Source: Gammaproteobacteria bacterium (GTDB taxonomy: Bacteria; Pseudomonadota; Gammaproteobacteria; JASBUN01). From it: a DNA stretch of 64,000 nt. Shown here piece by piece: positions 48,237-64,000 of the stretch (within the stretch, counting starts at the first letter, position 1; each line of letters begins with the position of its first letter). The notes beneath the pieces were generated by a model that was not told the DNA's origin, did no database searches, and was given only the letters and a program-made list of their open reading frames with translations. The stretch covers positions 124,001 to 188,000 of the forward strand of contig JASBUN010000058.1 in NCBI GenBank assembly GCA_030147845.1, in the 5' to 3' direction. Position numbers and translations under genes: made by a program.

Positions 48237-49010
48237 ATGGAAAAAATACAAAAAATATTGGCTGGGCTCGCCCTGGTCGCCGGCTGCGCCCTAAGCGCCG
48301 GGCCGGCTCAAGCCACCATTATGTACGACCAGAACGTTACTCCCGACGTGATCTTCGGCAGCGGCAATAGCAACGGCGCCTGGACGATAGACACGCAAAA
48401 CAACGTCGAAGTGGGATTGCGGGCGAAAAAACGCTTTGTCGGCACCACCGGCAGTAACGGAGACGGTAGCTACAATCAGGAATCGGGCATTTCCAGCGGT
48501 TCGGCGGCCAAGTGGAATTTCGAGTTTGCCATCAATCTCGACGCCAATGGCTCGGGCGGCCGGCTCTTCAATGATGTCTTGGTCATGCTGTCGGTCGACA
48601 CCGATCCCAGCGCTGCAACCAATTTCGTGAGTTTCGATCCGCTCAGCGTTTGGAGCGACAACGCCTATGGCACCAACGCGACCGCCAACGGTGCCGGCGA
48701 CGAGTCTGCTGCCACCAACAGCGACCGCGGCGTATCGAGCGGATTTTATGTCGCACAAAATTCGCAGAACATTGGCTGGTTAGGCCTGGGAATGAATGTC
48801 ATGATTCCCGCGACCTACGACTTCCGCCTGGACGTGTTGGCGCCGAGTGAGGTCGGCTCAACGGTGCTCGCGTCGACTCGGATGCGGGTTTTGGTTGATG
48901 GCGGCGCAGCGGTGCCGGAACCGTCGGAATTGGCGTTACTGGCGCTCGGATTGACCGGCCTTGGCGTCACGCGCCATAAGCGCAAACGCGACCGCAGCCG
49001 CACGAAATAA
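48237..49010 (+). CDS. PEP-CTERM sorting-domain protein, secreted
   Basis: This 257-residue protein has a signal peptide (MEKIQKILAGLALVAGCALS, cut near residue 26 at AQA) and a Gly/Asn/Ser-rich beta-type ectodomain. The classic C-terminal PEP-CTERM anchor is VPEPSELALLALGLTGLG followed by a basic tail. Such proteins are cleaved at PEP by exosortase (EpsH/XrtA) and end up in extracellular polymer or at the surface. The start has a GGAG site 7-8 nt upstream. No exosortase gene is in the window. No specific function of the ectodomain is recognised. Confidence 0.93.
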   Translation: MEKIQKILAGLALVAGCALSAGPAQATIMYDQNVTPDVIFGSGNSNGAWTIDTQNNVEVGLRAKKRFVGTTGSNGDGSYNQESGISSGSAAKWNFEFAINLDANGSGGRLFNDVLVMLSVDTDPSAATNFVSFDPLSVWSDNAYGTNATANGAGDESAATNSDRGVSSGFYVAQNSQNIGWLGLGMNVMIPATYDFRLDVLAPSEVGSTVLASTRMRVLVDGGAAVPEPSELALLALGLTGLGVTRHKRKRDRSRTK

Positions 49011-49609: not shown

Positions 49610-51261
49610 ATGGCAAACTCAATTGGTGCGGTAATCGATGACGGGCAGACGCGCGGCTGGTTGTCGCGCGAACGCACCGTCGCAGGGCCACAATTCAACC
49701 GCTGGCTAGTGCCACCAGCAGCTCTTGCGATCCATTTGAGCATCGGCATGGCTTATGGATTTTCGGTGTTTTGGCTGCCGATGAGCAAACTCGTCGCCAA
49801 TCCCGCGCAAGGCTGTAGCCATGCGAGTTGGTGGTCTGGCATGTTGACGACGACCACCTGCAACTGGTCGGTACCGTCGGTGAGTCTCACATTTACGCTC
49901 TTTATCGCGGTACTCGGTATCGCTGCAGCATTTTGGGGCGGTTGGCTGGAACGCGCCGGGCCACGCAAAGCAGGTTTCATCGCCGCGCCATGCTGGGGAG
50001 GAGGCATGTTCATCGGTGGCATTGGCGTAGCCACCCATCAACTGTGGCTGCTATGGCTCGGCTGCGGAATTCTCGGCGGTATCGGCCAGGGGCTCGGTTA
50101 CATCACGCCGGTCTCGTCGTTGATCAAATGGTTCCCCGACCGACGCGGCATGGCAACCGGCTTTGCCATCATGGGTTACGGCGGTGGCGCGATGATCGGC
50201 GCGCCCATTGCGGTGGCCCTAATGAAACACTTCTCCAGCAGCGGCGGACACGGAGTGGCGGCGACACTCATGGTAATGGGGCTGATTTATATCGTGGCGA
50301 TGTCCTTGGGCGCGTTTGCCTTTCGTACGCCTCCGGTGGGCTGGAAGCCCGAAGGCTGGACGCCACCGAACGACGAAAACAGCAAAGCCATGATTACCGG
50401 CCGGCATGTACATCTTAATCGCGCATGGAAAACCCCGCAGTTCTGGTTAATTTGGGCCGTGCTGTGTCTGAACGTTACCGCGGGTATCGGTGTAATTTCT
50501 ATGGCCAGTCCGATGCTCCAAGATGTATTCGGCGGCCGCTTGATTGGTGTCGATGGTGGCGGGACACTAACGGCAGCACAAATGTTAGCAATCGTAGCCG
50601 CTGCCGCTGGCTTGGTTGGCCTGATCAGTCTGTTCAACCGCCTAGGACGCATTTTCTGGGCCTCGTTGTCGGACTTTATCGGCCGAAAAATACCTATTTC
50701 ACGTTCTTTGTTCTCGGCATCGCACTGTACTGCCTGATGCCGACACTGGGACATCTCGGCATGGCCGGGGCATTCGTGATCGTGGTTTGCGTTATCTTGT
50801 CCATGTACGGCGGTGGCTTTTCCACGGTACCGGCCTATCTCGCGGACATTTTTGGTACACAGATGGTTGGCGCCATTCACGGTCGGCTACTGACCGCATG
50901 GTCGGCGGCCGGGATCATCGGTCCCGTGTTAATCGCCAACATTCGCCAGTTCCAACTCAACTATGGCGTGGCACACAACTTGGTCTATGATCGCACCTTG
51001 TATATCCTCGCCGGTTTACTGTTCATCGGGCTTATCTGCAACTCGCTCATACGCCCGGTAAAAGAACACGACTACATGAGCGACGCCGAAGTCGAGGCCG
51101 AACGGAGACTGCAGCACGAGTCACCTAAAACAGCAGCCGATATCGACATCGCCGCGCGCGGCAGCTTTGGCGTGAGCGGTGTAATTGCGTGGTTAGCGGT
51201 GGGAGTGCCGTTCCTGATCGGCGTCTACATCGCCATAGCAAAAGCCGCGGTGCTGTTCTAA
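49610..51261 (+). pseudogene. OFA-family MFS transporter, broken by a -1 frameshift
   Basis: Two overlapping frames encode one major-facilitator protein. Frame 1 (49610-50737) covers the N-terminal half and helices up to LGRIFWASLSDFIGRK, then ends in a junk tail. The second frame takes over at NTYFTFFVLGIALYCLMP and runs to 51261. The switch is at an A5 run (50686-50690); one extra A restores a 550-residue, 12-helix protein. The N-terminal SIGMAYGFSVFWLP and the GLGYITPVSSLIKWFPDRRGMATG motif mark the oxalate/formate antiporter (OFA) family. Start ATG 49610 has a strong GGAGGA site. It may be a real pseudogene or a sequencing error; substrate unknown. Confidence 0.75.
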
Positions 51262-52591: not shown

Positions 52592-53089
52592 TCATTTACG
52601 TCTGTCCTGCGAAAGCCGCTCCGCAAGCGCATCCAAGGGATTTTTCGGGCCATTCCCAGCATGAACAAGTTCATTCACGGCGGAAAGCAAACGCTGCAAA
52701 TCTACGCTGACCGATTCCGTCGACGTATTCGCGATGTAATACTCGAACTGTGCCTGGGCCTGAATCAAATGCACCAACGCCAAATTGTAGTGCGCCTTCG
52801 CCTGCCGAGGATTAAACCGTAGCACGGCTTCATACTGCTGCCGTGCGGCTTCGAATCGGCGTTCATGAAGATCGATGTTACCAAGCCGAAAATGACTCTC
52901 GGCATGACTGGGATCAGAACGAAGAATCGTCTCAAAGCCACGGCGGGCCGCCTGCCAATCTCCATCCATATAAGATTTCTCGGCGGCGTTGAGCGTATCG
53001 AGCGCACCAGTGGTTGACCGGTTAGGGTGGTTTGCGCAAGCAGCTACAAAAATCGCAGAAACCAATATTGTTCGCGCCTTCATGGACAT
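52592..53089 (-). CDS. tadD: TadD-like TPR lipoprotein
   Basis: This 165-residue protein starts at ATG 53089 or 53083. It has a lipoprotein signal with the lipobox VAAC (Cys near residue 19), then at least two tetratricopeptide repeats (WQAARRGFETILRSDPSHAE and FEAARQQYEAVLRFNPRQAK). TadD proteins help place the Tad secretin in the outer membrane. It is the last gene of the locus, 3 bp after the FHA/TPR gene. The symbol is by context and fold. Confidence 0.75.
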   Translation of the reverse strand: MSMKARTILVSAIFVAACANHPNRSTTGALDTLNAAEKSYMDGDWQAARRGFETILRSDPSHAESHFRLGNIDLHERRFEAARQQYEAVLRFNPRQAKAHYNLALVHLIQAQAQFEYYIANTSTESVSVDLQRLLSAVNELVHAGNGPKNPLDALAERLSQDRRK

Positions 53090-53091
53090 TG

Positions 53092-54567
53092 TTATCGCTT
53101 ATCCAGATAAGCGTACCAGCGCAATTTAGACGAGGCCTTAATGTAATAAGGGCTCGACGGTCCCACCAGCTCAAGCACACGCCGCCATTTCTTTCTCGCC
53201 TCACCGAGATCGATAGTCTCAAGCCGATAACCTTCACGGAATATCGTACGCGCCTGCACATCCGCGGCCCGCAAGGACACGATTGCTTTACTGTGCGGAT
53301 TTATCGCTGCGGCGCGCCGCCAATTACGATAGGCATCCTGTAGTCGACCTTCACGTACGGCCGCGCTGGCACGCATAATATACTCAGTGGTTACCGTGCG
53401 CATGACGTCCTGTGCATAGATGCTGCGCGCGCCCGAAAACAATGCCCGTTCACCATTTAGAAACTGCAGCCAAGCAGAAAACCCGATTTTCTTTTTTCCG
53501 TTCTTGAAGGCGCGCTGACCCTCCAGATAGTCGGCGTAAATTTTTTCGATTCCTCGCGCTAGTTCGCTCGCCTTCACTCGCCGAGCGTCGTCAAGATCAG
53601 TTTGGCTTGCCGTTTCCCGCAATGCCACCAGCGCTTTCGGGGCGTGGCCTTGGAGATAGACGGAACGCGCATGTTCTATGCCAGCCACATCACGCTGAGA
53701 CGTACGCGCGCGATTCGGCTTTCGCGACACACCGGCGGTTGAGCGTGAATGATCACTGGCCACTACACCCGGGCGGCGCGAAGACTTGACATTGACCGGC
53801 ATAGTGTCGACGGTATTTTTTGGCCGCCCGACAGGCATCGACGCAGCGCGCGCCGGTGTAACTTCATTCGAAACAATTGATGAGGACAATTCAGTCGCAG
53901 GCTTTGAACGACGAACGGCTTCCTGGCCGGAGTCAACGATTAACTTGCTTTCAACGATTTTTACTCGCTGCCCATTGTAAAGTTGATACCCCACAACCGA
54001 TGCACCCACTGCTGATACCGCGAACATCCCAGCGACCCAATACCATGCCGCGCCTTTACGCACGTTGTGCGTCGTCGCTAACGGATTCGGTTTACCCGAC
54101 GCTGCACTGCGTAACTTTGGCGAACCTGATGATGTGCCAAAAACAAGTGTCGCCTCACCAATTTCGATCCGATCGTCATCTCCAAGCAAAACGCGTTGGA
54201 CACAATGACCATTCACACGCAAGCCGTTAAGGCTTGATGCATCTTCAGCAATAAAGCCGGCCTCGACGCGACTAATAATCGCGTGTCGTCTCGATACGCC
54301 AGCGCCATGAAAAACCAAGTCGCATTCGTTAGACCGTCCAATAGTGTATGGAAATCGATCGATATATACGCGTTTAGCGCTGGCTACTTCGCGTAGCCAT
54401 GCAACGCGCGGCTGCTCAAGAACCGCAGGCAAAAGCATGGTCTTGTCCGCATCAGAACATTGCGCTTTTTCACCGATATAGTTAGAACCGGAGCGCTCAA
54501 CGAGACTCAACGCGCCGAGAGTTGGCGTAACAGATTTTCCGTCGCACCGTTGGCCCGCGGTACTCAT
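53092..54567 (-). CDS. FHA-domain membrane protein with TPR-like C-terminus
   Basis: This 491-residue protein has an FHA domain at about 64-145: YTIGRSNECDL with the phosphothreonine-binding Arg, SRRHA and SLNG. A single membrane helix (about 174-195, AWYWVAGMFAVSAVGASVVG) is followed by a low-complexity linker and a helical, TPR-like C-terminal third (EGRLQDAYRNWRRAAAINPH). The topology puts FHA in the cytoplasm and the repeats in the periplasm. It overlaps the DUF192 stop by 4 bp (ATGA). A role in linking phosphorylation to pilus assembly is inferred. Confidence 0.85.
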   Translation of the reverse strand: MSTAGQRCDGKSVTPTLGALSLVERSGSNYIGEKAQCSDADKTMLLPAVLEQPRVAWLREVASAKRVYIDRFPYTIGRSNECDLVFHGAGVSRRHAIISRVEAGFIAEDASSLNGLRVNGHCVQRVLLGDDDRIEIGEATLVFGTSSGSPKLRSAASGKPNPLATTHNVRKGAAWYWVAGMFAVSAVGASVVGYQLYNGQRVKIVESKLIVDSGQEAVRRSKPATELSSSIVSNEVTPARAASMPVGRPKNTVDTMPVNVKSSRRPGVVASDHSRSTAGVSRKPNRARTSQRDVAGIEHARSVYLQGHAPKALVALRETASQTDLDDARRVKASELARGIEKIYADYLEGQRAFKNGKKKIGFSAWLQFLNGERALFSGARSIYAQDVMRTVTTEYIMRASAAVREGRLQDAYRNWRRAAAINPHSKAIVSLRAADVQARTIFREGYRLETIDLGEARKKWRRVLELVGPSSPYYIKASSKLRWYAYLDKR

Positions 54568-54977
54568 CCGGCCGACTCCGGCGCCGCCATCAATTGCTCT
54601 TCTTCGAACTCGAGTTTATCACCGATTCTCAACCCACTGCGACGGACCGTTCCACTGGGGAGTTCCAACACTGAGCATGTATGTCGATGTGCCGGACATA
54701 AGCGAAATGGCGCCACTTGAGTAGCCGTCTTGCGGATCCGATTATGGCGGTCGAGAAATACGACGTCGATCGAATAGCGCATACCGATCGTATGTACGGC
54801 CCGACACGGCGCAAGCAGAAGTCCTGAACCGCTGGGCAGTGTGGAGGTTCCCAACAAGCCACGTAGCCGCCGAAACCAATTGTCGGCTAACACGATTCTG
54901 TGAACGATCAGCTCTCCAGTACGGAGGTTTCTGACCGTCCGTACCGCGGCGGCATTAGTAGTAGGCTTCGAAATCAT
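54564..54977 (-). CDS. DUF192 family protein
   Basis: This protein is about 137 residues from ATG 54977, which overlaps the tadC stop (ATGA); ATG 54989 is an in-frame alternative. The DUF192 pattern is clear: ADNWFRRLRGLLGTSTLPSG, GLLLAPCRAVHTIGMRYSID and VVFLDRHNRI, with the conserved Cys-x-x-x-H-T-x-G-M stretch and a terminal GDKLEF. Function is unknown in the family. Its place inside a Tad locus, coupled on both sides, argues for a role in that system. Confidence 0.85.
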   Translation of the reverse strand: MISKPTTNAAAVRTVRNLRTGELIVHRIVLADNWFRRLRGLLGTSTLPSGSGLLLAPCRAVHTIGMRYSIDVVFLDRHNRIRKTATQVAPFRLCPAHRHTCSVLELPSGTVRRSGLRIGDKLEFEEEQLMAAPESAG

Positions 54978-55882
54978 TTGCTGAACCATTGCATCAAAAA
55001 CTCCAGTGAACCGTTATCTACGAGTTTAGTCACGACCGGCACGCCGATAATGATGAACGTCATTGGAAACAACAGAAAAACAAGCGGAAATAGAAGTTTG
55101 ACCGGCGCCCTATTGGCCAGTGTCTCGGCGCGCAAAAATCGCTCCTTTCGGCGTTGTTGTGACTGTTGCAACAAAATGTCGCCAAGCTCACCACCCGACT
55201 CCTCAGCTTGGTTCACGGCAGCGACAAAGTTACCGATAGATCCTAAGCGGACACGACGACCCAAGCCTATTAAAGCATCGTGGCGGTTCACGCCGGTGCG
55301 GGTATCGCGTAAAAATCGTCCGAATTCTTGTTTCAGCGGCCCCGGTGGCATTTTTTCCATTACGTGGTCGATGGCACTCGAAAAATTCAGTCCCGCGCGC
55401 ATACTCAATACCAACAAGTCGAGACAAAAGGGAAACTCGCGTTCGATATGATTTTGTCGGCGCTTGGTCGCATCACGTAGCCAAATGTCCGGGTAAAAAT
55501 AGCCCGCTGGTATCATCAATAATAGAAATCCGATCCACCATAGACCCCGGAAATCCACTACCAAGTACGCATATGCGCAGAGTATTAGACCTATAGCCAA
55601 CCCCATACGACGACAGACAACGAACTCCTCGGCTCTTATCGCATACCCTACCCCCGCCGCATACAAACGATCTCGTATAAGATCTACAGAGTACGATCGC
55701 ATGCCATCGGCGACGCGGTGCGAAAACAAATTGATCACCGGGCGAAGTAATCGGAACAGCACGGGCGGGCGATCGCGCCACGCCTCATCCTCGAGCGCCG
55801 GCCGCTGCATCCGCAGCAACACCACACCTGAAAACAACATTGCCAGTGCGATTGCCATCAAAACAACCGGAATTAACGCCAT
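54974..55882 (-). CDS. tadC: Tad pilus inner-membrane protein TadC
   Basis: This GspF/TadC-type protein is about 302 residues. ATG 55882 is chosen because GGGAG lies 5 nt upstream; ATG 55885 and GTG 55888 are adjacent. Membrane segments are near residues 5-22, 95-130 and 265-290 (LLFPLVFLLFPMTFIIIGVP). The T2SSF signature region is FPFCLDLLVLSMRAGLNFSSAI and AEESGGELGDILLQQS. With TadB it forms the platform under the TadA ATPase. It follows tadB by 16 bp. Confidence 0.93.
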   Translation of the reverse strand: MALIPVVLMAIALAMLFSGVVLLRMQRPALEDEAWRDRPPVLFRLLRPVINLFSHRVADGMRSYSVDLIRDRLYAAGVGYAIRAEEFVVCRRMGLAIGLILCAYAYLVVDFRGLWWIGFLLLMIPAGYFYPDIWLRDATKRRQNHIEREFPFCLDLLVLSMRAGLNFSSAIDHVMEKMPPGPLKQEFGRFLRDTRTGVNRHDALIGLGRRVRLGSIGNFVAAVNQAEESGGELGDILLQQSQQRRKERFLRAETLANRAPVKLLFPLVFLLFPMTFIIIGVPVVTKLVDNGSLEFLMQWFSK

Positions 55883-55898
55883 CATCACTCCCTGTCGA

Positions 55899-56750
55899 TT
55901 AGACGTCGATATTTACTATTTTACGGATCATAAACACTGCTAACGTCATCATGATGCCCAATATCGCCAACGTCACCCACCCCAACGGCTCGGTAAACAA
56001 TGGTTGTATTGACGCTGGATTTTTTCGATATAGCACGGCCAGCAGTAGTACCGGTAGTGCGCCCACGACCCAGCCTTGCATACGACCCATCGCTGTTAGC
56101 GCGCGTATTTTCCCTTCCATCTGCCCTTTCTCTCGTAATGTATCAGCCAGCGTCTCGACGGTATCGGCAAGATTTCCACCCACGGCACGTGAAATAGATA
56201 TCGCCGAGGTCAACAGCTCAACCTCTCCAGAACCAATGCGGCGGCACATATCCGCCAGCGCCTGGTCAAGACCGCGGCCCATACGATATTCGGAAAGAAC
56301 TACCGCGAACTCCTGAGACACGGGCGCAGGTTGTTGAATCACCATCTGCTCGATAGCCCGCATCAAATGCGTTCCTGCGCGTAGCGAAGACGCCATGCTG
56401 GCGAGGCAATCGGGCAGTTGGTAGATAAATCGATCGATTCTCCGTCGACGTATAACTTTCAACACGATCCCAGGCAGTATGGCAATAAATATAATCGAGA
56501 CAATCAACCCGAAAACTCCGGCCAACCACAATCCCAATAGTCCGCCGACCGCAAGCACGATTACATTTGCCCCGAACAGCAATCGTGGATCAAGAAAAAT
56601 AAAAGATGATTTCAATCCGTTTCCGACTCGCGCCAAGAAGCTTTTCCGATAACTTCTTGCTCCGCTAATCAGAAACAGATACGCACACAAGAAGGCGACG
56701 ATACCCGCTACAACGGCCAGATAGATCGACAGTGTCTGTTCGTTAATCAT
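55899..56750 (-). CDS. tadB: Tad pilus inner-membrane protein TadB
   Basis: This 283-residue protein has an N-terminal helix (LAVVAGIVAFLCAYLFLISG), central helices near 65-95 and C-terminal helices. The T2SSF motif region is LPDCLASMASSLRAGTHLMRAI and GNLADTVETLADTLRE. It overlaps the tadA stop by 4 bp. It is paired with TadC as usual in Tad loci. Confidence 0.94.
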   Translation of the reverse strand: MINEQTLSIYLAVVAGIVAFLCAYLFLISGARSYRKSFLARVGNGLKSSFIFLDPRLLFGANVIVLAVGGLLGLWLAGVFGLIVSIIFIAILPGIVLKVIRRRRIDRFIYQLPDCLASMASSLRAGTHLMRAIEQMVIQQPAPVSQEFAVVLSEYRMGRGLDQALADMCRRIGSGEVELLTSAISISRAVGGNLADTVETLADTLREKGQMEGKIRALTAMGRMQGWVVGALPVLLLAVLYRKNPASIQPLFTEPLGWVTLAILGIMMTLAVFMIRKIVNIDV

Positions 56751-58441
56751 CGACCGTTTGCACCATAATCGAGTGGTTCAGCATCCGAACGTTCTGTACC
56801 TCGACCAAACAAGGCCCTATCCAGCATTTCACCAGATGATTCGAGCTCAACATAGAATGAGGGCGCGTATCCAAGACCCGTGAACTCACCGACAATAGCG
56901 CCGCCAGAAGTCCTACCACTTTGACGATATTCAAATATCGGTTGTAACAAAATTACATCGCCCTCCATACCATCAACTTCGGCGATACCGGTGATCCGCC
57001 GCGTACCGTCGCTAAATCGGGTCTGCTGCAAAATAACATCGATTGCCGAGACAATCTGTTCTCTGATCGCGCGTACCGGAAGATCCATACCGGACATCAA
57101 TACCATGACTTCCAGGCGAGACAGAAAATCCCTTGCGGAATTGGCGTGCCCGGTCGTAAGCGATCCGTCGTGGCCAGTGTTCATCGCCTGCAACATATCC
57201 AGCGCTTCACCGCCGCGGCATTCGCCGATCACGATTCGATCCGGTCGCATCCTAAGCGCATTGCGAACCAAGTCGCGAACACTAACCAGCCCCTTGCCCT
57301 CAACGTTCGGTGGCCGACTTTCGAGAGACACGACATGTTGTTGCGATAGCTGTAACTCGGCCGCATCTTCAATAGTAATAATGCGTTCTGTGTCCGGAAT
57401 GAAGTCCGATAAAACGTTAAGCGTGGTGGTCTTACCGGAGCCGGTTCCACCCGAAACAACGATATTTCGACGCGATCGTACGCATATTTCCAAGAAGCTC
57501 GCCATCTCCTTACTAAGCGTACCGAGCTCGACCAAGCGATCAATAGTAAATCTATCCTTGGCGAATTTTCGTATCGTCAGCACAGGTCCGGCCAATGACA
57601 GTGGTGGGATAATCGCATTCACCCGAGAGCCATCACTCAGGCGAGCATCGACCATGGGTGAGGCTTCATCGACGCGACGGCCTAACGGCGTGACAATGCG
57701 CTCGATCGCGCTCATCACGGATGACGCGCTAGAGAACCGCAACGACGTCTTCTCGATTTTCCCGCCGCGTTCGACGTAGACATGGTCTTCGCCGTTAATC
57801 ATAATTTCCGTTACCGTGTCGTCCGCCAGCAGGGGTTCGATGGGCCCCAGACCAATAGCCTCATCGACGATTTCCTTCGTTAGCTGATCGCGGTTTATGT
57901 ACTCGGGTATCTCCAATTTCTCGTTCGCCATTACCACTTCGGCCGCCTGCCTAGCTTCACGACGGAGCTGATCGGTGGAAAACGTATGGAGAATCGTCCG
58001 TTTGTGTAAATCGAGATACTCCAATACCTGCGCATGGATAGCCTGTTTCAAGATTTTCAGGTCATCGCTTTCCTGCAACATTTTCTTGTCGTGATTGTCA
58101 TCTGCAAAGTTCACATCATGTCCATTGTTCAACCGATCCGTTGGGGCCATTTTTTTTGTCGATACCGTTAAGGTCAGTTCACCAATCTGGAACGAATCTC
58201 CCGAATCAAGACGGCGATGACCGATAATGCGCTGCGCGTTGTGCCAAATACCATTAGTGCTGCCAACATCATGAATCGACGCTGCTGTCTCGGACAACAC
58301 GAGTTCCGCATGGCGGCGCGAAACATACCGGTCCAACAACACCACATCACATTCTTTATCCTTGCCGAGTGTATGGACGCCAACATCCAGCTGATACTGG
58401 GTTATTTTCCCCGAACGGGTACAGACGTTAAGTTGATACAT
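56747..58441 (-). CDS. tadA: TadA/CpaF secretion ATPase with N-terminal FHA domain
   Basis: This 564-residue fusion is longer than the usual TadA (~430). Residues 1-95 are an FHA domain with GK near 26-27, SRRHA at 41-45 and STNG at 61-64, the normal phosphothreonine-pocket positions. A helical linker leads to the CpaF-type ATPase from about 190. Walker A is GGTGSGKTTT (331-340), the acidic box lies in DRIVIGECRGGEALDML, and the His box in GSLTTGHANSARDFL. TadA powers Flp pilus assembly. FHA-ATPase fusions are known in some delta-type Tad-like systems but are not standard. Confidence 0.94.
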   Translation of the reverse strand: MYQLNVCTRSGKITQYQLDVGVHTLGKDKECDVVLLDRYVSRRHAELVLSETAASIHDVGSTNGIWHNAQRIIGHRRLDSGDSFQIGELTLTVSTKKMAPTDRLNNGHDVNFADDNHDKKMLQESDDLKILKQAIHAQVLEYLDLHKRTILHTFSTDQLRREARQAAEVVMANEKLEIPEYINRDQLTKEIVDEAIGLGPIEPLLADDTVTEIMINGEDHVYVERGGKIEKTSLRFSSASSVMSAIERIVTPLGRRVDEASPMVDARLSDGSRVNAIIPPLSLAGPVLTIRKFAKDRFTIDRLVELGTLSKEMASFLEICVRSRRNIVVSGGTGSGKTTTLNVLSDFIPDTERIITIEDAAELQLSQQHVVSLESRPPNVEGKGLVSVRDLVRNALRMRPDRIVIGECRGGEALDMLQAMNTGHDGSLTTGHANSARDFLSRLEVMVLMSGMDLPVRAIREQIVSAIDVILQQTRFSDGTRRITGIAEVDGMEGDVILLQPIFEYRQSGRTSGGAIVGEFTGLGYAPSFYVELESSGEMLDRALFGRGTERSDAEPLDYGANGR

Positions 58442-58444
58442 GGC

Positions 58445-59779
58445 TCAATCCAATAGGTTGAATCGCATTGTGTCTTTGCTTCTCTTACGCATTTCCTGCG
58501 CATGTTGAATGAGATCTTTATTCGACTTACTATCGGCATGCACCAAGTGCGGCGTTACCAAGACCACCAACTCGGTTTGCTTATTCTGGAACTGCCTCGA
58601 CTTGAATAGCTCTCCTAAGATGGGAAGATGTCCTAACCCGGGGACCTTATTAACGTCCTTACTGCGTTCATTGGTGAACAGTCCTGAAATGACCATAGTT
58701 TGCCCTTCTCGCACATTCATGTCGGTTTGAGTCTTGCGGCTCAAAAAGCCCGGAATTCCTAAAACCGTCACACTCGGATCTATCGTGCTGACTTCCACTT
58801 CGACGTGTGTGTCTATATAGCCCAACGGATCGGAGGTCGGCGACATGCGTAATATGATGCCGTACTGCTTAAACAGGACGTTTAGGGCGCCTTGTCGGTC
58901 CGTTATTGGAATAGGTACCTCGCCTCCTGCAAGGAACTCGGCCTTGCCGCCACTACGACATGTCAACTTCGGCTCCGCCAACATTCTCGCCTCACCATTT
59001 TGTGCTAACAGATTGATCATCGACGTAATCCGCGTCGAAATACCGAAATAAGGATTGTTGCGGCCAACATCGAGCGGCAGTCCCGGCGAGGAGGATCCGG
59101 TTTTGACCGGGGCGCCAGTGCCACGATAGTATGGATTCGATTGAAAATCGCTGAGATTTGCATAAGTCGGACCTGCAATGAGGTCATTCCAGTCAACCCC
59201 GATTCGCTTCAAATCAGTCTTTTTGACTTCAACTACCTTTACGTCCAAAAAAATCATACCGCGCATGGTGACGCCACCGCCGCTCACCGCATTAATAACG
59301 CTTGGGTTGCGTTTTGCGATCGCATCGACGCGCGCCGTATCTTGCGCTCGTATACTTTGTCCTTCTACGATCACATGCTCTCCGGCCCGGCGCGCCCGCA
59401 CGCCCTCGATGCCACGCAATTGCATTTCCACTTCGCGCAATACTTCCGCCGGGGGCCGTGTAGAGATACGAATAATGCGGTGGTCTTCCTTTCCATCTTT
59501 GCGCCAGACGCGTAAGTCCGTGAGCCCGGCTTGTTTGCCTAGCAGCAAGATCTGGCCGGCATCCTTGAACACTTTTACGTCGGCCAGTTGGCCGTTACCT
59601 ATCGCCACTCGTATTACATTTTTGTAAGCCAAAAGCTCCGTCTGACCGACAACCAATTGTATCGTTCTCGCCTGCTGTAGGCCGGTTGGGGCTGACAATA
59701 CGTTCGGTACCATCGACAACGATATCAATATCAATACTACCGTCTGGCAGCAGGCGCGAGAGCATATTGGCCGTTTCAT
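58445..59779 (-). CDS. rcpA: Tad secretin RcpA/CpaC
   Basis: This 444-residue protein starts at ATG 59779, 2 bp after the cpaB stop; the frame extends to 59827 inside cpaB. It has a signal peptide ending near SAPTG, an N-terminal pilus-assembly domain (TIQLVVGQTELLAY, VRARRAGEHVIVEG) and the secretin core (AEPKLTCRSGGKAEFLAGGE, VREGQTMVISGLF, VPGLGHLPILGELF). It forms the outer-membrane channel. It is co-transcribed with cpaB and tadA. Confidence 0.95.
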   Translation of the reverse strand: MKRPICSRACCQTVVLILISLSMVPNVLSAPTGLQQARTIQLVVGQTELLAYKNVIRVAIGNGQLADVKVFKDAGQILLLGKQAGLTDLRVWRKDGKEDHRIIRISTRPPAEVLREVEMQLRGIEGVRARRAGEHVIVEGQSIRAQDTARVDAIAKRNPSVINAVSGGGVTMRGMIFLDVKVVEVKKTDLKRIGVDWNDLIAGPTYANLSDFQSNPYYRGTGAPVKTGSSSPGLPLDVGRNNPYFGISTRITSMINLLAQNGEARMLAEPKLTCRSGGKAEFLAGGEVPIPITDRQGALNVLFKQYGIILRMSPTSDPLGYIDTHVEVEVSTIDPSVTVLGIPGFLSRKTQTDMNVREGQTMVISGLFTNERSKDVNKVPGLGHLPILGELFKSRQFQNKQTELVVLVTPHLVHADSKSNKDLIQHAQEMRKRSKDTMRFNLLD

Positions 59780-59781
59780 AA

Positions 59782-60561
59782 CTATCTGACACCCCCGCGA
59801 ATGATCTCTACTTTTTGCCCACGCCAACGTGATTTTCCGTACCCAAGCAATGAAGCGATGGTGACGCTCTGTACGGCGGGAAGTTGGTCGTCTTTAGGAG
59901 CGCGGAGCGTCACTGTCAAAGTGCCCGCCTTTCTTGCCTGGGTAATTCGCGCCGCATTTTTCGGACTCACCATAAGCGTAATAGTCTGATATCGGCCCGA
60001 GTTGGATAAACCGCGGTACGTGTCAACCGCGCTACCGGTGGCCAAAACGCGCACGTTGTTTAATAGCAAAATAGTACGGGTTCGGTTGCCATCCCGGAGC
60101 GTTGCAAGCAAGTCGATGTGATTTCCCGGGCTCAATAGTCCGGACATAGACGAAACCACATCGACGGGAAACGTCAACGCCCGTTGGCCGGGCACCACAA
60201 AATGATCAAAGCCGGCGGCTTTGTCTTTTTCTACGTGCGATAACAGGATAGGTTCACCGCTACCGACGGCATTCACCAGCCGCCGTCCAACAACGCCATT
60301 TACCTGTGCTGGCCGTACGGCACTCGAACTCACAAAATCGCGAGGAATTGGCCTGACGGCCAGATCATCGTAGCGAAGCAAATCACCGGTGCGCAGGTTA
60401 TGCTTCGGAACGACTATTTTTACCGGCCTGTAGCGTAGATCTATTTTATCCTGATAATCCCGGACGCTATTTTTGATATAGCGACTCGTAAAATAGGCGG
60501 CAGCGCCGCCGCTGATTACCGCCCCCACCAGTAGCCACGTGGTTGCTCGAGTAACTACCAT
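59782..60561 (-). CDS. cpaB: Flp pilus assembly protein CpaB/RcpC
   Basis: This 259-residue protein starts at ATG 60561 behind a strong GAGGGGGG site; the frame extends to 60645 without similarity. One N-terminal helix (TWLLVGAVISGGAAAYF) precedes a SAF domain (PKHNLRTGDLLRYDDLAVRP) and the CpaB core (VVPGQRALTFPVDVVSSMSG). RcpC/CpaB is a periplasmic partner of the secretin. It is the first of the core Tad genes after the pseudopilins. Confidence 0.94.
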   Translation of the reverse strand: MVVTRATTWLLVGAVISGGAAAYFTSRYIKNSVRDYQDKIDLRYRPVKIVVPKHNLRTGDLLRYDDLAVRPIPRDFVSSSAVRPAQVNGVVGRRLVNAVGSGEPILLSHVEKDKAAGFDHFVVPGQRALTFPVDVVSSMSGLLSPGNHIDLLATLRDGNRTRTILLLNNVRVLATGSAVDTYRGLSNSGRYQTITLMVSPKNAARITQARKAGTLTVTLRAPKDDQLPAVQSVTIASLLGYGKSRWRGQKVEIIRGGVR

Positions 60562-60610
60562 GTATCCCCCCCTCAACAAGTCCCTGTTTTGTGTGCCATG
60601 AGCAGTGCTG

Positions 60611-60868
60611 CTAATACGGTTGTCCGATCGCCCAAATGTATTCATCTTGGTGTTCTGACAAGCGATTCATCACAAACCCAATCCCATGCCACAGCACGAT
60701 CAGTGCTAACAATACGACAACATATTCCACTACCGCACCGCCACGTTGAACACGTGCGTTTACGTGACAGTGAGCGTGCCCGGCTAATTCATTCCCTTTA
60801 CCCAGTTCACTAGTATCAGAACGCCTAAACCGGTGCGATCGTTCTTTGCCGAAATGGTTATCTGGCAT
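60611..60868 (-). CDS. Flp/TadE-like mini-pilin candidate
   Basis: This 85-residue protein starts at ATG 60868, with AGAGGA about 9 nt upstream, although this overlaps the preceding gene by 85 bp. An unusually long 43-residue basic leader precedes RGGAVVEYVVVLLALIVL. Cleavage between the two glycines would leave Glu at +5 and Tyr at +6, as in Flp pilins and TadE pseudopilins, and a hydrophobic helix follows. It could be the major pilin of this system or a minor one. Confidence 0.7.
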   Translation of the reverse strand: MPDNHFGKERSHRFRRSDTSELGKGNELAGHAHCHVNARVQRGGAVVEYVVVLLALIVLWHGIGFVMNRLSEHQDEYIWAIGQPY

Positions 60869-61506: not shown

Positions 61507-62388
61507 TTATTTCCTATATTCGGGCAACAATTCGCGTGAACTCGCTACCGTATCGACGTAATCCGCATGGAGTCCTTCGCCGAATAAAAATGAATAGGGT
61601 GCCATCGACAGTAGCCCGAACGTCTTTGCGCCGGCTACGGCTGTACAACCGACGATCTCCTCCGGCACCAGATTTCCAATACGTTTACGTAATGCCGACT
61701 CGTCACTCGGTGCTGCCCATGCGTCCGAAAGGATGGCTCCCTTTGCTTGTATGTCGAGCAATCCTCCGCTCACCGTGAAATCATTAATTGATGCAGTCAC
61801 AGTAGCAACAGCATATGTCCTTCCACCAAGGTTTAAGCCATGCGACAAATCTATCCCTGGTAAACCCGCGCAGCCCGGAACGGCGCTTCCCAACTTAGTC
61901 GTCACCGACGACGCCGAAGAAGCCAGGCCGCCAAACACCGGAATTCCACTATAGGCGACGTTGTCGACACCTGGTTTAGGCACAGGTGAGGTTCGTTCCT
62001 CGATCGCGTTACCATTGATGCTGCGAACTAACGCACGCCGCTTGTAATCTCGCCACAATGTATTCGTGGTGGCTCCTGTCGCTCCTACCGCCTGTAACGG
62101 ATTTCCAAATAACCGCCACTGAATCTCGCGTCCTATCGAGTTATCCGACTTATGATTTTCGCCGTCGTTCCAGCCAGCGCGAGCGTCAGACCACACGGTG
62201 CGTTCCCACACCGCGTAGCGATTAGCCAAAATAGTATTCTGTTTCAGGTCAATGTACTTCCCGAGCAACGGGACGGTAATAAATACCGGCACGAAAAACG
62301 CCATTGAAATAAGAAACTCCGTCATGGCTTGTCCGCGGCAGGCACCGGCGCCTGACCTCAGAACGCAGCGCATCAAATTACCGCGCAT
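61507..62388 (-). CDS. TadE-like pseudopilin
   Basis: This is a protein of about 293 residues; ATG 62388 is chosen, the frame extends to 62445, and ATG 62373 is another option. Near the N-terminus it has the class III prepilin pattern CRGQAMTEFLISMAFFVPVF: cleavage after Gly gives Glu at +5 before a hydrophobic helix. The rest is a large extracellular domain of unknown type with Cys in VPGCAGLPG and VGCTAVAG. It is much larger than a typical TadE, closer to TadF/TadG. Confidence 0.75.
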   Translation of the reverse strand: MRGNLMRCVLRSGAGACRGQAMTEFLISMAFFVPVFITVPLLGKYIDLKQNTILANRYAVWERTVWSDARAGWNDGENHKSDNSIGREIQWRLFGNPLQAVGATGATTNTLWRDYKRRALVRSINGNAIEERTSPVPKPGVDNVAYSGIPVFGGLASSASSVTTKLGSAVPGCAGLPGIDLSHGLNLGGRTYAVATVTASINDFTVSGGLLDIQAKGAILSDAWAAPSDESALRKRIGNLVPEEIVGCTAVAGAKTFGLLSMAPYSFLFGEGLHADYVDTVASSRELLPEYRK

Positions 62389-63226
62389 CGCGGTATCCGC
62401 CTGCCACGGTAAACATGGACGCCGGAACGCATTTCCCAACGTCAACCCGTTTCGCTCTCTGCGTCAGAGGGCCTCCTGGTATGCCTTTCACATAGCTGTA
62501 CAGCAGTACTTTTCTACCACCGAGATCGGCGTAACAAAAACGACTGCCAGGCAACAGCGCGAGCTCGTAAACCCTGCACTTATAGCCGGCCACCGACATG
62601 GTTACGCTAGTGGTAGTGCCGGCGGCCGCCGATAATGCACGGTCCGTGCGCAGAACCGGCGAGCGCGTTCGCATACTGAGTGACGCGTAACCAGCCGCGA
62701 TGGCCGAGGAATCATGATTGGTTTCACGTTTATCACCGCTCACTCTATCGATATAGAGATCACGCTTAGCATCGCCAATAATTACTTTATCGATCGGAAT
62801 TTTTATATGTGGTGGATTCAATAATAGACGATACCATTCGGCGACCAAGGCTTCGTTCGCCGGACTCGATGCGGCGCCGCTGCCGGCAAGCTCCTTCAGG
62901 CGCCTGCGCAGTTCATCTATTCTCGGCTGCGTGGGATTCGGCACTATCCGTTGCCAGCCCTGTCCGGTTTGCTCGGCGCGAACTGAACTGTCACGATACC
63001 ACCACTCCTCTCTGGTTGGCCCGTGCACGTCGGACGGTGCTCCCATACTTCGGTAGTGATCGATCATTCCCTGCCATTGCGTAGCGTAAACCACATGCAG
63101 GGTAAATTTTGGGCCATCGGCGTCGCCGTCTGGACAATCGCCTGCCCAAACCGTTGCACTGGAGGCGATCAGCACGGTTAGCGCGGCAAACATCTGCGCA
63201 TGAGGAAATGTCGGACTTCGTTTCAT
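62378..63226 (-). CDS. Secreted protein of the Tad locus, function unknown
   Basis: This 282-residue protein starts at ATG 63226 (MKRSPTFPHAQM) with a signal peptide cleaved near VWAG (about residue 29). The mature part starts with a Cys (GDCPDGDADG), has HVVYATQWQGMIDHYRSM, and holds Cys residues in YKCRVYEL, FCYADLGG and GKCVPAS that could form disulfides. No family is recognised. It overlaps the next gene by 11 bp, so it is in the same operon. Confidence 0.65.
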   Translation of the reverse strand: MKRSPTFPHAQMFAALTVLIASSATVWAGDCPDGDADGPKFTLHVVYATQWQGMIDHYRSMGAPSDVHGPTREEWWYRDSSVRAEQTGQGWQRIVPNPTQPRIDELRRRLKELAGSGAASSPANEALVAEWYRLLLNPPHIKIPIDKVIIGDAKRDLYIDRVSGDKRETNHDSSAIAAGYASLSMRTRSPVLRTDRALSAAAGTTTSVTMSVAGYKCRVYELALLPGSRFCYADLGGRKVLLYSYVKGIPGGPLTQRAKRVDVGKCVPASMFTVAGGYRDAR

Positions 63227-63999
63227 GGCAGGCTCACCAGGCGTACTTCCCAAAACGGATTAAACAAGTTGGCATACTCGCCGCTTTCGCTTACGGTGGC
63301 ATAGCCCGCTGCTGGACGCTGGTAGTAAATTTCCGCTCTCGATAATGCAGTCAGCTTCTCGGTCGTTGCGCCCATACCCAACAATTTCTTTGGGCGCGCA
63401 TCCGATAGTGGAACAGTGGCGTACGCGGTCACGGTCAACGATTTATCCCTATCGTCAGCGTCCGCATCAAGTTCATAGTACGATGGTACGCCGCGATAAT
63501 TTTCGTCGAATTCCTGGGCGGTAGCACTGCCTTGCGCTAACGTTGTGGTACTCCAGCCCTTTATTGTCCTATGACCAAGCGTCAACTCGTCCGCGGCGCT
63601 CCAATCCGACAGACTGCCGTCGGATATCTCCGATGTATGGCCGCTTTTTTGGATTCGTATTAAAAGAAGATTTTTACTCCACCCTCGATTGCCATTTATG
63701 AAACGCCTTGATGACCCAAGACTGATAGACACCATCTTATCCATCCGCCCATCGTCGTTCGACGCATCGTATTGCTTGATAAACGTACCGATTCTAGACA
63801 TCTCTCCGGCAATACTCGCTGCGCTGACCAGACCGCTCAGCCCCGACACTTCGGCCGGATTATTGACCTGTATATTGGGTGAGTATTCCCGCGCAGTCTT
63901 CTCCATCAACGACCGCATCGGTAACACGCTACTGCCACTGATGTCCGCAAGTAATTGCGATTCCGATAGAAGAATATTAATTTCTGAAGCAGCGGGCAC
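63223..63999 (-). CDS. TadG-like protein, C-terminal part (cut by window edge)
   Basis: The frame runs from 63999 to 63223 and continues past the right edge; the visible 258 residues are the C-terminal portion. The end (AEIYYQRP to YANLFNPFWEVRLVSLP) is the pattern seen in the extracellular domain of TadE/TadG-type proteins. GTG 63999 is only where the frame enters the window. It overlaps the next gene by 4 bp. Confidence 0.6.
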   Translation of the reverse strand: MPAASEINILLSESQLLADISGSSVLPMRSLMEKTAREYSPNIQVNNPAEVSGLSGLVSAASIAGEMSRIGTFIKQYDASNDDGRMDKMVSISLGSSRRFINGNRGWSKNLLLIRIQKSGHTSEISDGSLSDWSAADELTLGHRTIKGWSTTTLAQGSATAQEFDENYRGVPSYYELDADADDRDKSLTVTAYATVPLSDARPKKLLGMGATTEKLTALSRAEIYYQRPAAGYATVSESGEYANLFNPFWEVRLVSLP

Positions 64000-64000
64000 G

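Follow-up and report, generated by a model that had tools for sequence, protein, structure and literature searches.

A Tad pilus locus with a DUF192 gene after tadC and a putative kinase-FHA switch in a gammaproteobacterium

To our knowledge, it is still unsettled how a single ATPase lets Tad pili alternate between extension and retraction, and we know of no function for DUF192 proteins. Both questions are raised by a locus near the end of a 64,000-nucleotide stretch of gammaproteobacterial DNA (hereafter the window; contig JASBUN010000058.1 of assembly GCA_030147845.1, positions 124,001 to 188,000), where a DUF192 gene and a second FHA gene are found inside a tad operon. We asked what these genes might do there, and whether they belong to one system or to two.

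The locus and its published relatives

All Tad operon genes in the window were on the minus strand and tightly packed in the order cpaB-rcpA-(FHA-tadA)-tadB-tadC-DUF192-FHA2-tadD. An Lnt-like gene and a Ser/Thr kinase gene formed a pair divergent from the tad genes at the 5' end of the locus. The features are as follows, in window positions; L233 coordinates are added where a feature extends past the window.

52592-53089, minus: tadD, TPR outer-membrane lipoprotein (TPR matches; lipobox ...IFVAAC, Cys19)
53092-54567, minus: FHA2, with a cytoplasmic FHA domain, one TM helix and a helical-repeat (TPR-like) tail (FHA 58.5 bits; structure model; relatives)
54157-54348, minus: FHA domain of FHA2, with the phosphothreonine-binding signature GR / SRRH / SLNG
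54523-54528, minus: candidate phosphosite T14-P15 in the disordered leader of FHA2, suggested by a T-P in 12/13 relatives
54564-54989 (from the first ATG), minus: DUF192, probable cytoplasmic Tad-type subfamily (PF02643 63.9 bits; alignment of 108 relatives; tree)
54974-55888, minus: tadC, platform protein (T2SSF 66.8 bits)
55899-56750, minus: tadB, platform protein (T2SSF 53.4 bits)
56747-58441, minus: tadA/cpaF ATPase with an N-terminal FHA domain, class III CpaF architecture (T2SSE 218 bits, FHA 57.9 bits)
58181-58372, minus: FHA domain of TadA, signature SRRH / STNG, with GK replacing GR
58445-59827, minus: rcpA/cpaC secretin (Secretin 133 bits)
59782-60645, minus: rcpC/cpaB alignment protein (TIGR03177 151 bits vs a cut-off of 71)
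60611-60868, minus: small pilin-like protein (...GGAVVEYVVVLLALIVL...), from sequence; conserved in L061, L062, L085 and L122
60784-61500, minus: conserved secreted protein, found 5' of cpaB in nearly all DUF192-positive gammaproteobacterial loci that reach there
61507-62445, minus: TadE-like protein (..QAMTEFLISMAFFVPVF..), from sequence; conserved
63223-64000, minus: TadG-like protein, PF13400, running past the window end (L233:2224-3492)
65042-67108, plus: Lnt-like (apolipoprotein N-acyltransferase-like) gene, outside the window (L233:4043-6109)
67083-67973, plus: Ser/Thr kinase gene, 3 kb beyond the window (L233:6084-6974; Pkinase 72.6 bits)

The pilin-like ORF at 60611-60868 encodes 85 aa; its likeness to a pilin was judged by eye, and it had no Pfam match. 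A preliminary description of this DNA had reported 4-bp overlaps joining tadC, DUF192 and FHA2, followed by a TPR lipoprotein gene. This proved correct: DUF192 and FHA2 overlapped by 4 bp (ATGA), tadC and DUF192 overlapped by 4 bp when DUF192 is read from its second ATG (54977; 16 bp from the first), and tadD began 2 bp past the end of FHA2. The same description had TadD "fused into" the operon. We found an ordinary Tad component, fused to nothing, and in most gammaproteobacterial loci it likewise came after DUF192 or FHA2.

The locus held a TadA ATPase with adjacent TadB and TadC, an RcpA secretin, RcpC/CpaB and a TadD lipoprotein, which places it among Tad (type IVc) systems; TadE/G-like and pilin-like genes and a conserved gene order add to the likeness. 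It differed from the classical type in having an FHA domain on TadA and extra DUF192, FHA2, kinase and Lnt-like genes, and in the absence of tadZ from the locus, where rcpA abutted tadA with no gene between. Some described Tad-like systems also lack TadZ, and a locus without tadZ is thus still compatible with Tad.

Two published systems come close. Class III CpaF ATPases are described as having FHA at the N-terminus (PMC12019362), and the TadA studied here shares this domain architecture, with FHA at residues 24-87 fused N-terminally to a CpaF core (T2SSE, 197-473). Unlike here, the passages of that paper on class III do not link the FHA domain to a kinase or to DUF192. The Kil system of Myxococcus xanthus, as presented in passages of PMC8460266, has a Tad-like locus that encodes an FHA-fused ATPase along with further FHA proteins, and a signalling cascade was proposed. 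Kil is described there as lacking TadD and TadG, whereas our locus has TadD and a TadG-like PF13400 protein; those passages name neither a kinase nor DUF192, both of which were found here. FHA-bearing CpaF (PMC12019362) and FHA-rich Tad-like loci (PMC8460266) are therefore already published. A more distant parallel is the regulatory network of the Sulfolobus archaellum, which includes the kinases ArnC and ArnD and, according to the abstract of PMC5300886, controls archaellum expression. There too phosphorylation proteins control a type IV filament, but that system is archaeal and not homologous to ours as a locus.

A DUF192 gene had also been noted in the tad operon of Bulleidia extructa / Helcococcus in 2025 (PMC12786226). 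That protein is of the same family and fold as ours; the gene was reported there as a local trait in a handful of Bacillota, whereas here DUF192 emerges as a deep cross-phylum partner, placed mostly after tadC. In the open-access literature, which leaves most subscription papers uncovered, we found no further paper linking DUF192 with Tad or CpaF and none combining CpaF, FHA and a threonine kinase. The cross-phylum DUF192-Tad association and the kinase-FHA2-Tad locus hence appear to be undescribed in that literature.

Three minor features of the surroundings were recorded. An MFS-type transporter gene (window 49610-51261) appears to be broken into two frames that overlap, 49610-50737 and 50425-51261; a frameshift may be the cause. 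A PEP-CTERM-like secreted protein (..VPEPSELALLALGLTGLGVTRHKRKR) was encoded at window 48237-49010, a few kb past the end of the tad operon. The Lnt-like protein (L233:4043-6109) had Glu/Lys/Cys residues, and its C-terminal region resembled a C39 peptidase by eye; its gene accompanied the kinase in most FHA2-positive loci, and a separate full Lnt was present elsewhere in this genome.

The DUF192 gene beside tadC

The window protein matched PF02643 well above the gathering cut-off (63.9 vs 27 bits). Its structure model (pLDDT 84) was closest to two solved DUF192 structures, 3pjy (TM 0.69) and 3m7a (TM 0.67; E ~5e-8); the next matches, 6ozd and 5h3k, have no known function. In an alignment of 108 relatives, C62, H66, M70, D75 and E109 were conserved among Tad-type members. 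Canonical gammaproteobacterial DUF192 proteins had N-terminal hydrophobic signal segments, and in the tree these secreted forms were set apart from the Tad-type proteins by a branch with 100/99 support. In the window protein there was no room for a signal peptide 5' of the domain. Because there is no space for a signal peptide after tadC, we concluded that Tad-type DUF192 is most likely cytoplasmic.

We searched 369 gammaproteobacterial genomes with the window protein and examined the neighbourhoods of the best 37 matches and three canonical ones. All 31 loci with E values up to 7e-12 were tad operons in which DUF192 adjoined tadC or stood one gene further, and nine weaker or canonical loci had no tad gene in their flanks. 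Measured from the tadC stop, the start of the domain was at -12 to +29 nt in 27 of the 31 loci; the other four had ~600 nt between tadC and DUF192. Results showed a close match between DUF192 and the FHA form of TadA in this class. Nearly all FHA-TadA loci carried DUF192 (28/29), and none of 19 non-FHA Tad loci had it directly after tadC. Counted by ORF, FHA was present on 28 of 30 TadA ORFs of DUF192-positive loci (the two exceptions were truncated or split) and on 1 of 20 from DUF192-negative loci. Two genomes (G043 and G083) contained both kinds of locus. Since classical gammaproteobacterial Tad loci have no DUF192 after tadC, it cannot be a general requirement for Tad. A weak DUF192 match was seen 3' of tadD in one classical, non-FHA locus of this class (L186:11813-12412).

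To look beyond this class, named genomes were scanned with a motif from five gammaproteobacterial DUF192 sequences. This gave 80 loci from many phyla, picked by DUF192 sequence and not by gene context, which we pooled with the 31 loci above, leaving out four duplicates (n = 107). Tad genes were on the same fragment in 92 of the 107, and DUF192 was within 60 nt of the tadC stop in 55 of the 89 with a recognisable tadC. Bacillota, Chloroflexota, Acidobacteriota and Desulfuromonadia were among the groups in which DUF192 adjoined tad genes, and an annotated Moraxella bovis plasmid had CpaB, a secretin, an ATPase, two T2SSF proteins, DUF192 and TadE. DUF192 required five changes when mapped as a label on the TadA tree. 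DUF192 and TadA also co-occurred at the level of genomes: in 250 sampled Bacillota genomes, counted without regard to phylogeny and with TadA matches listed down to E ~1e-112, 111 had DUF192 and TadA, 5 had DUF192 alone, 9 had TadA alone and 125 had neither. In 95 of 124 Bacillota copies, DUF192 was on the same strand as tadA and downstream of it, at a median distance of 1967 nt, which is about the length of tadB plus tadC.

In six Thermoleophilia genomes (L213, L215, L217, L218, L220, L221) the DUF192 after tadC was fused to a C-terminal receiver-like stretch; the receiver match was weak (Pfam E 0.003, in 1/6). Several TadZ proteins from DUF192-positive loci of other phyla likewise started with a receiver domain. 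In one Thermoleophilia genome, the reading frame of DUF192 carried on into a segment of Flp-type pilin (..QTMAEYVVVLTVVSAAVIVAL..; L174:6956-7465, the same as L203), as if DUF192 were the cytoplasmic leader of a pilin.

Three broader roles for DUF192 were considered and rejected. It is not a general partner of FHA, as most TadA proteins beside it in other phyla have no FHA (50 of 56 scored TadA ORFs outside the Gammaproteobacteria). Nor is it a substitute for TadZ, which was confirmed 5' of tadA in four of the DUF192 loci examined in other phyla. A pilus link for all Tad-type DUF192 genes was contradicted by seven loci with no adjoining pilus gene within the scanned flanks (L092, L121, L129, L135, L160, L164, L178) and by two beside a PilB-type ATPase. 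The latter were in Elusimicrobia (L138:6791-9312 and L145:6908-9192), where the ATPase following Tad-type DUF192 had MshEN and T2SSE domains and was not a tad gene.

FHA2, the FHA domain of TadA and the kinase

The locus was said to encode two FHA proteins, and it does: TadA (57.9 bits) and FHA2 (58.5 bits, residues 74-137). For FHA2, an FHA-membrane-TPR layout had been proposed. The FHA domain and a single membrane helix (~residues 174-212 in the model) stood up to analysis; the TPR tail is better described as a confidently modelled helical repeat (residues 286-490), to which the TPR_2 match was weak. With a cytoplasmic FHA-like domain, one TM helix and a periplasmic part, FHA2 resembles SctD and GltG. 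It differs in that the periplasmic part is a helical repeat in the model, not ring-building domains, and it scored 18.1 bits with the NCBIfam GltG model, far below the cut-off of 650.

Among the sampled gammaproteobacterial genomes, FHA2 was present in 12, from 7 families, and the order tadA(FHA)-tadB-tadC-DUF192-FHA2-tadD recurred in all seven families. Together with the tadC-DUF192 pairing across phyla, this shows that the gene order singled out in the preliminary description is conserved, and that adjacency of DUF192 and FHA genes is clearly not a peculiarity of one genome.

We compared the phosphothreonine-binding signatures of the two domains. Window FHA2 had GR, SxxH and NG; window TadA had SxxH and NG, with GK for GR. 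SxxH and NG were kept in the TadA FHA of all 12 FHA2-positive loci, two of which (L122 and L137) came from outside the discovery set, and the first signature residues were GK, not GR, in these members (GS in L070). By contrast, the TadA signature was lost in 22/22 FHA2-negative loci, although the FHA fold was still present. The signature of FHA2 itself was kept in most members, some having GS for GR or lacking NG; in L062 the FHA2 domain was degenerate, yet the kinase was present. The candidate phosphosite of FHA2 is a Thr-Pro in its disordered leader, which 12 of 13 members share.

The kinase from the 5' end of the locus was searched against the 369 gammaproteobacterial genomes. Thirteen genomes matched with E values up to 1.4e-36, followed by a gap to 3e-27, and twelve of these were exactly the FHA2-positive genomes. 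The kinase adjoined tad-locus genes in 11 of the 12; the contig of the twelfth was too short to tell. All 13 orthologues had kept the Hanks-type catalytic residues (VAIK Lys, HxD, Asn, D(F/L)G). Long 5' flanks were available for ten FHA2-negative DUF192 loci: nine had no kinase there, and the tenth (G334) had one upstream that was a much weaker match. On the TadA tree, FHA2 and the kinase marked one clade with one change (96% SH-aLRT). Their co-occurrence thus amounts to one evolutionary event, kept over long branches, and not many independent ones, and Fisher values computed for the association overstate its strength. The thirteenth kinase (G125:C6:66507-67298, L251) was in a genome with no FHA2 Tad locus, and no tad gene was seen within ~18 kb of it.

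A proposed motor switch and its rivals

We consider it fairly probable that this locus encodes a Tad (type IVc) pilus whose motor carries a kinase-FHA switch, with DUF192 as an accessory subunit of the TadB/TadC platform. The reading draws on gene order, the subfamily split, the missing signal-peptide space, co-occurrence, and the kinase and FHA signatures; from these we infer phosphorylation, the kinase's substrates and an effect on pili, and likewise the contact of DUF192 with TadB/TadC and its mode of action. The dedicated Ser/Thr kinase from the 5' end of the locus would phosphorylate Tad components on threonine, and the resulting phosphothreonines would be read by the FHA domain of the TadA motor and by that of FHA2. 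FHA2 is predicted to be a single-pass inner-membrane protein whose helical-repeat tail would lie in the periplasm beside RcpA, RcpC and TadD, and phospho-dependent binding could couple the motor to the envelope-spanning channel, or free it. Such coupling or release would make assembly or retraction switchable. DUF192 would stand apart from this switch and be much more ancient, serving the TadB/TadC platform as a small cytoplasmic accessory subunit. It would act at the motor-platform face, alongside TadZ in other phyla and alongside FHA-TadA in this locus.

The preliminary description had suggested a transmembrane phospho-signal arm and had treated DUF192 together with it. The arm gains indirect support, in that a conserved Ser/Thr kinase gene adjoins the locus and TadA has kept an intact signature only in loci with FHA2. 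The bundling does not hold: DUF192 is present in Tad loci without FHA or kinase, and so does not in itself belong to the FHA arm.

A stronger form of the proposal is tentative, and we would not yet favour it: cytoplasmic DUF192 may be a widely conserved subunit of the Tad motor platform, to which one gammaproteobacterial branch would have added a kinase, a motor FHA and a membrane FHA that switch the motor by threonine phosphorylation. Its absence beside tadC in classical Tad loci may explain why such a subunit has escaped notice.

For DUF192, the main rival to a platform role is that it acts on pilins, binding or handling prepilins before insertion or cleavage. The in-frame Flp-type segment in Thermoleophilia points this way, as does an Alkaliphilus plasmid in which DUF192 directly follows the prepilin peptidase gene; but the fusion was found in one genome only and the usual neighbour of DUF192 is tadC, not flp or tadV, and we judge this explanation unlikely. 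It is more doubtful still that DUF192 is an enzyme, or a sensor of some ligand, in which the Cys-His-Asp-Glu set would hold a metal or small molecule, the pilus operon being only the place where its product is used. The strong conservation of the polar residues C62, H66, D75 and E109 would suit such a role, but Thermoleophilia members have Ala or Gly at C62, and no fold relative has a known activity.

For the FHA domains, the FHA-like domain of the type III secretion protein SctD is thought to work without phosphate. The two domains here could similarly be phosphate-independent structural adaptors, FHA2 being simply an alignment protein across the inner membrane. FHA2 and TadA matched Yop-YscD_cpl as well as FHA, the FHA-TM-periplasm topology is SctD-like, and in FHA2-negative loci the FHA fold of TadA persists while its signature is degenerate, all of which fits. 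Set against this is the retention of the TadA signature in 12/12 loci of the FHA2 clade, alongside a kinase with intact catalytic residues, and we regard the adaptor explanation as somewhat unlikely. Finally, DUF192, FHA2 and the kinase might have been caught in a successful Tad cassette with no functional coupling. The single clade of FHA2 and kinase would be expected from this, but DUF192 stays after tadC across phyla despite differing surrounding genes, it is fused to other segments in Thermoleophilia, and the FHA signature is lost where FHA2 and the kinase are absent. We consider hitchhiking of this kind very improbable.

On the preferred reading, that of a kinase-FHA motor switch with DUF192 on the platform, DUF192 can be named as a candidate Tad subunit and the kinase and FHA proteins would form a self-contained module. 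The sampled loci offer a built-in comparison for such a module: FHA2-positive loci have an intact signature and the kinase, and FHA2-negative loci have a degenerate signature and no kinase orthologue.

As a separate observation, a Desulfobacterales tad locus (L116:7349-12124) contained DUF192 and an intact TadA FHA, along with further FHA genes and another gene of TadA-like type.
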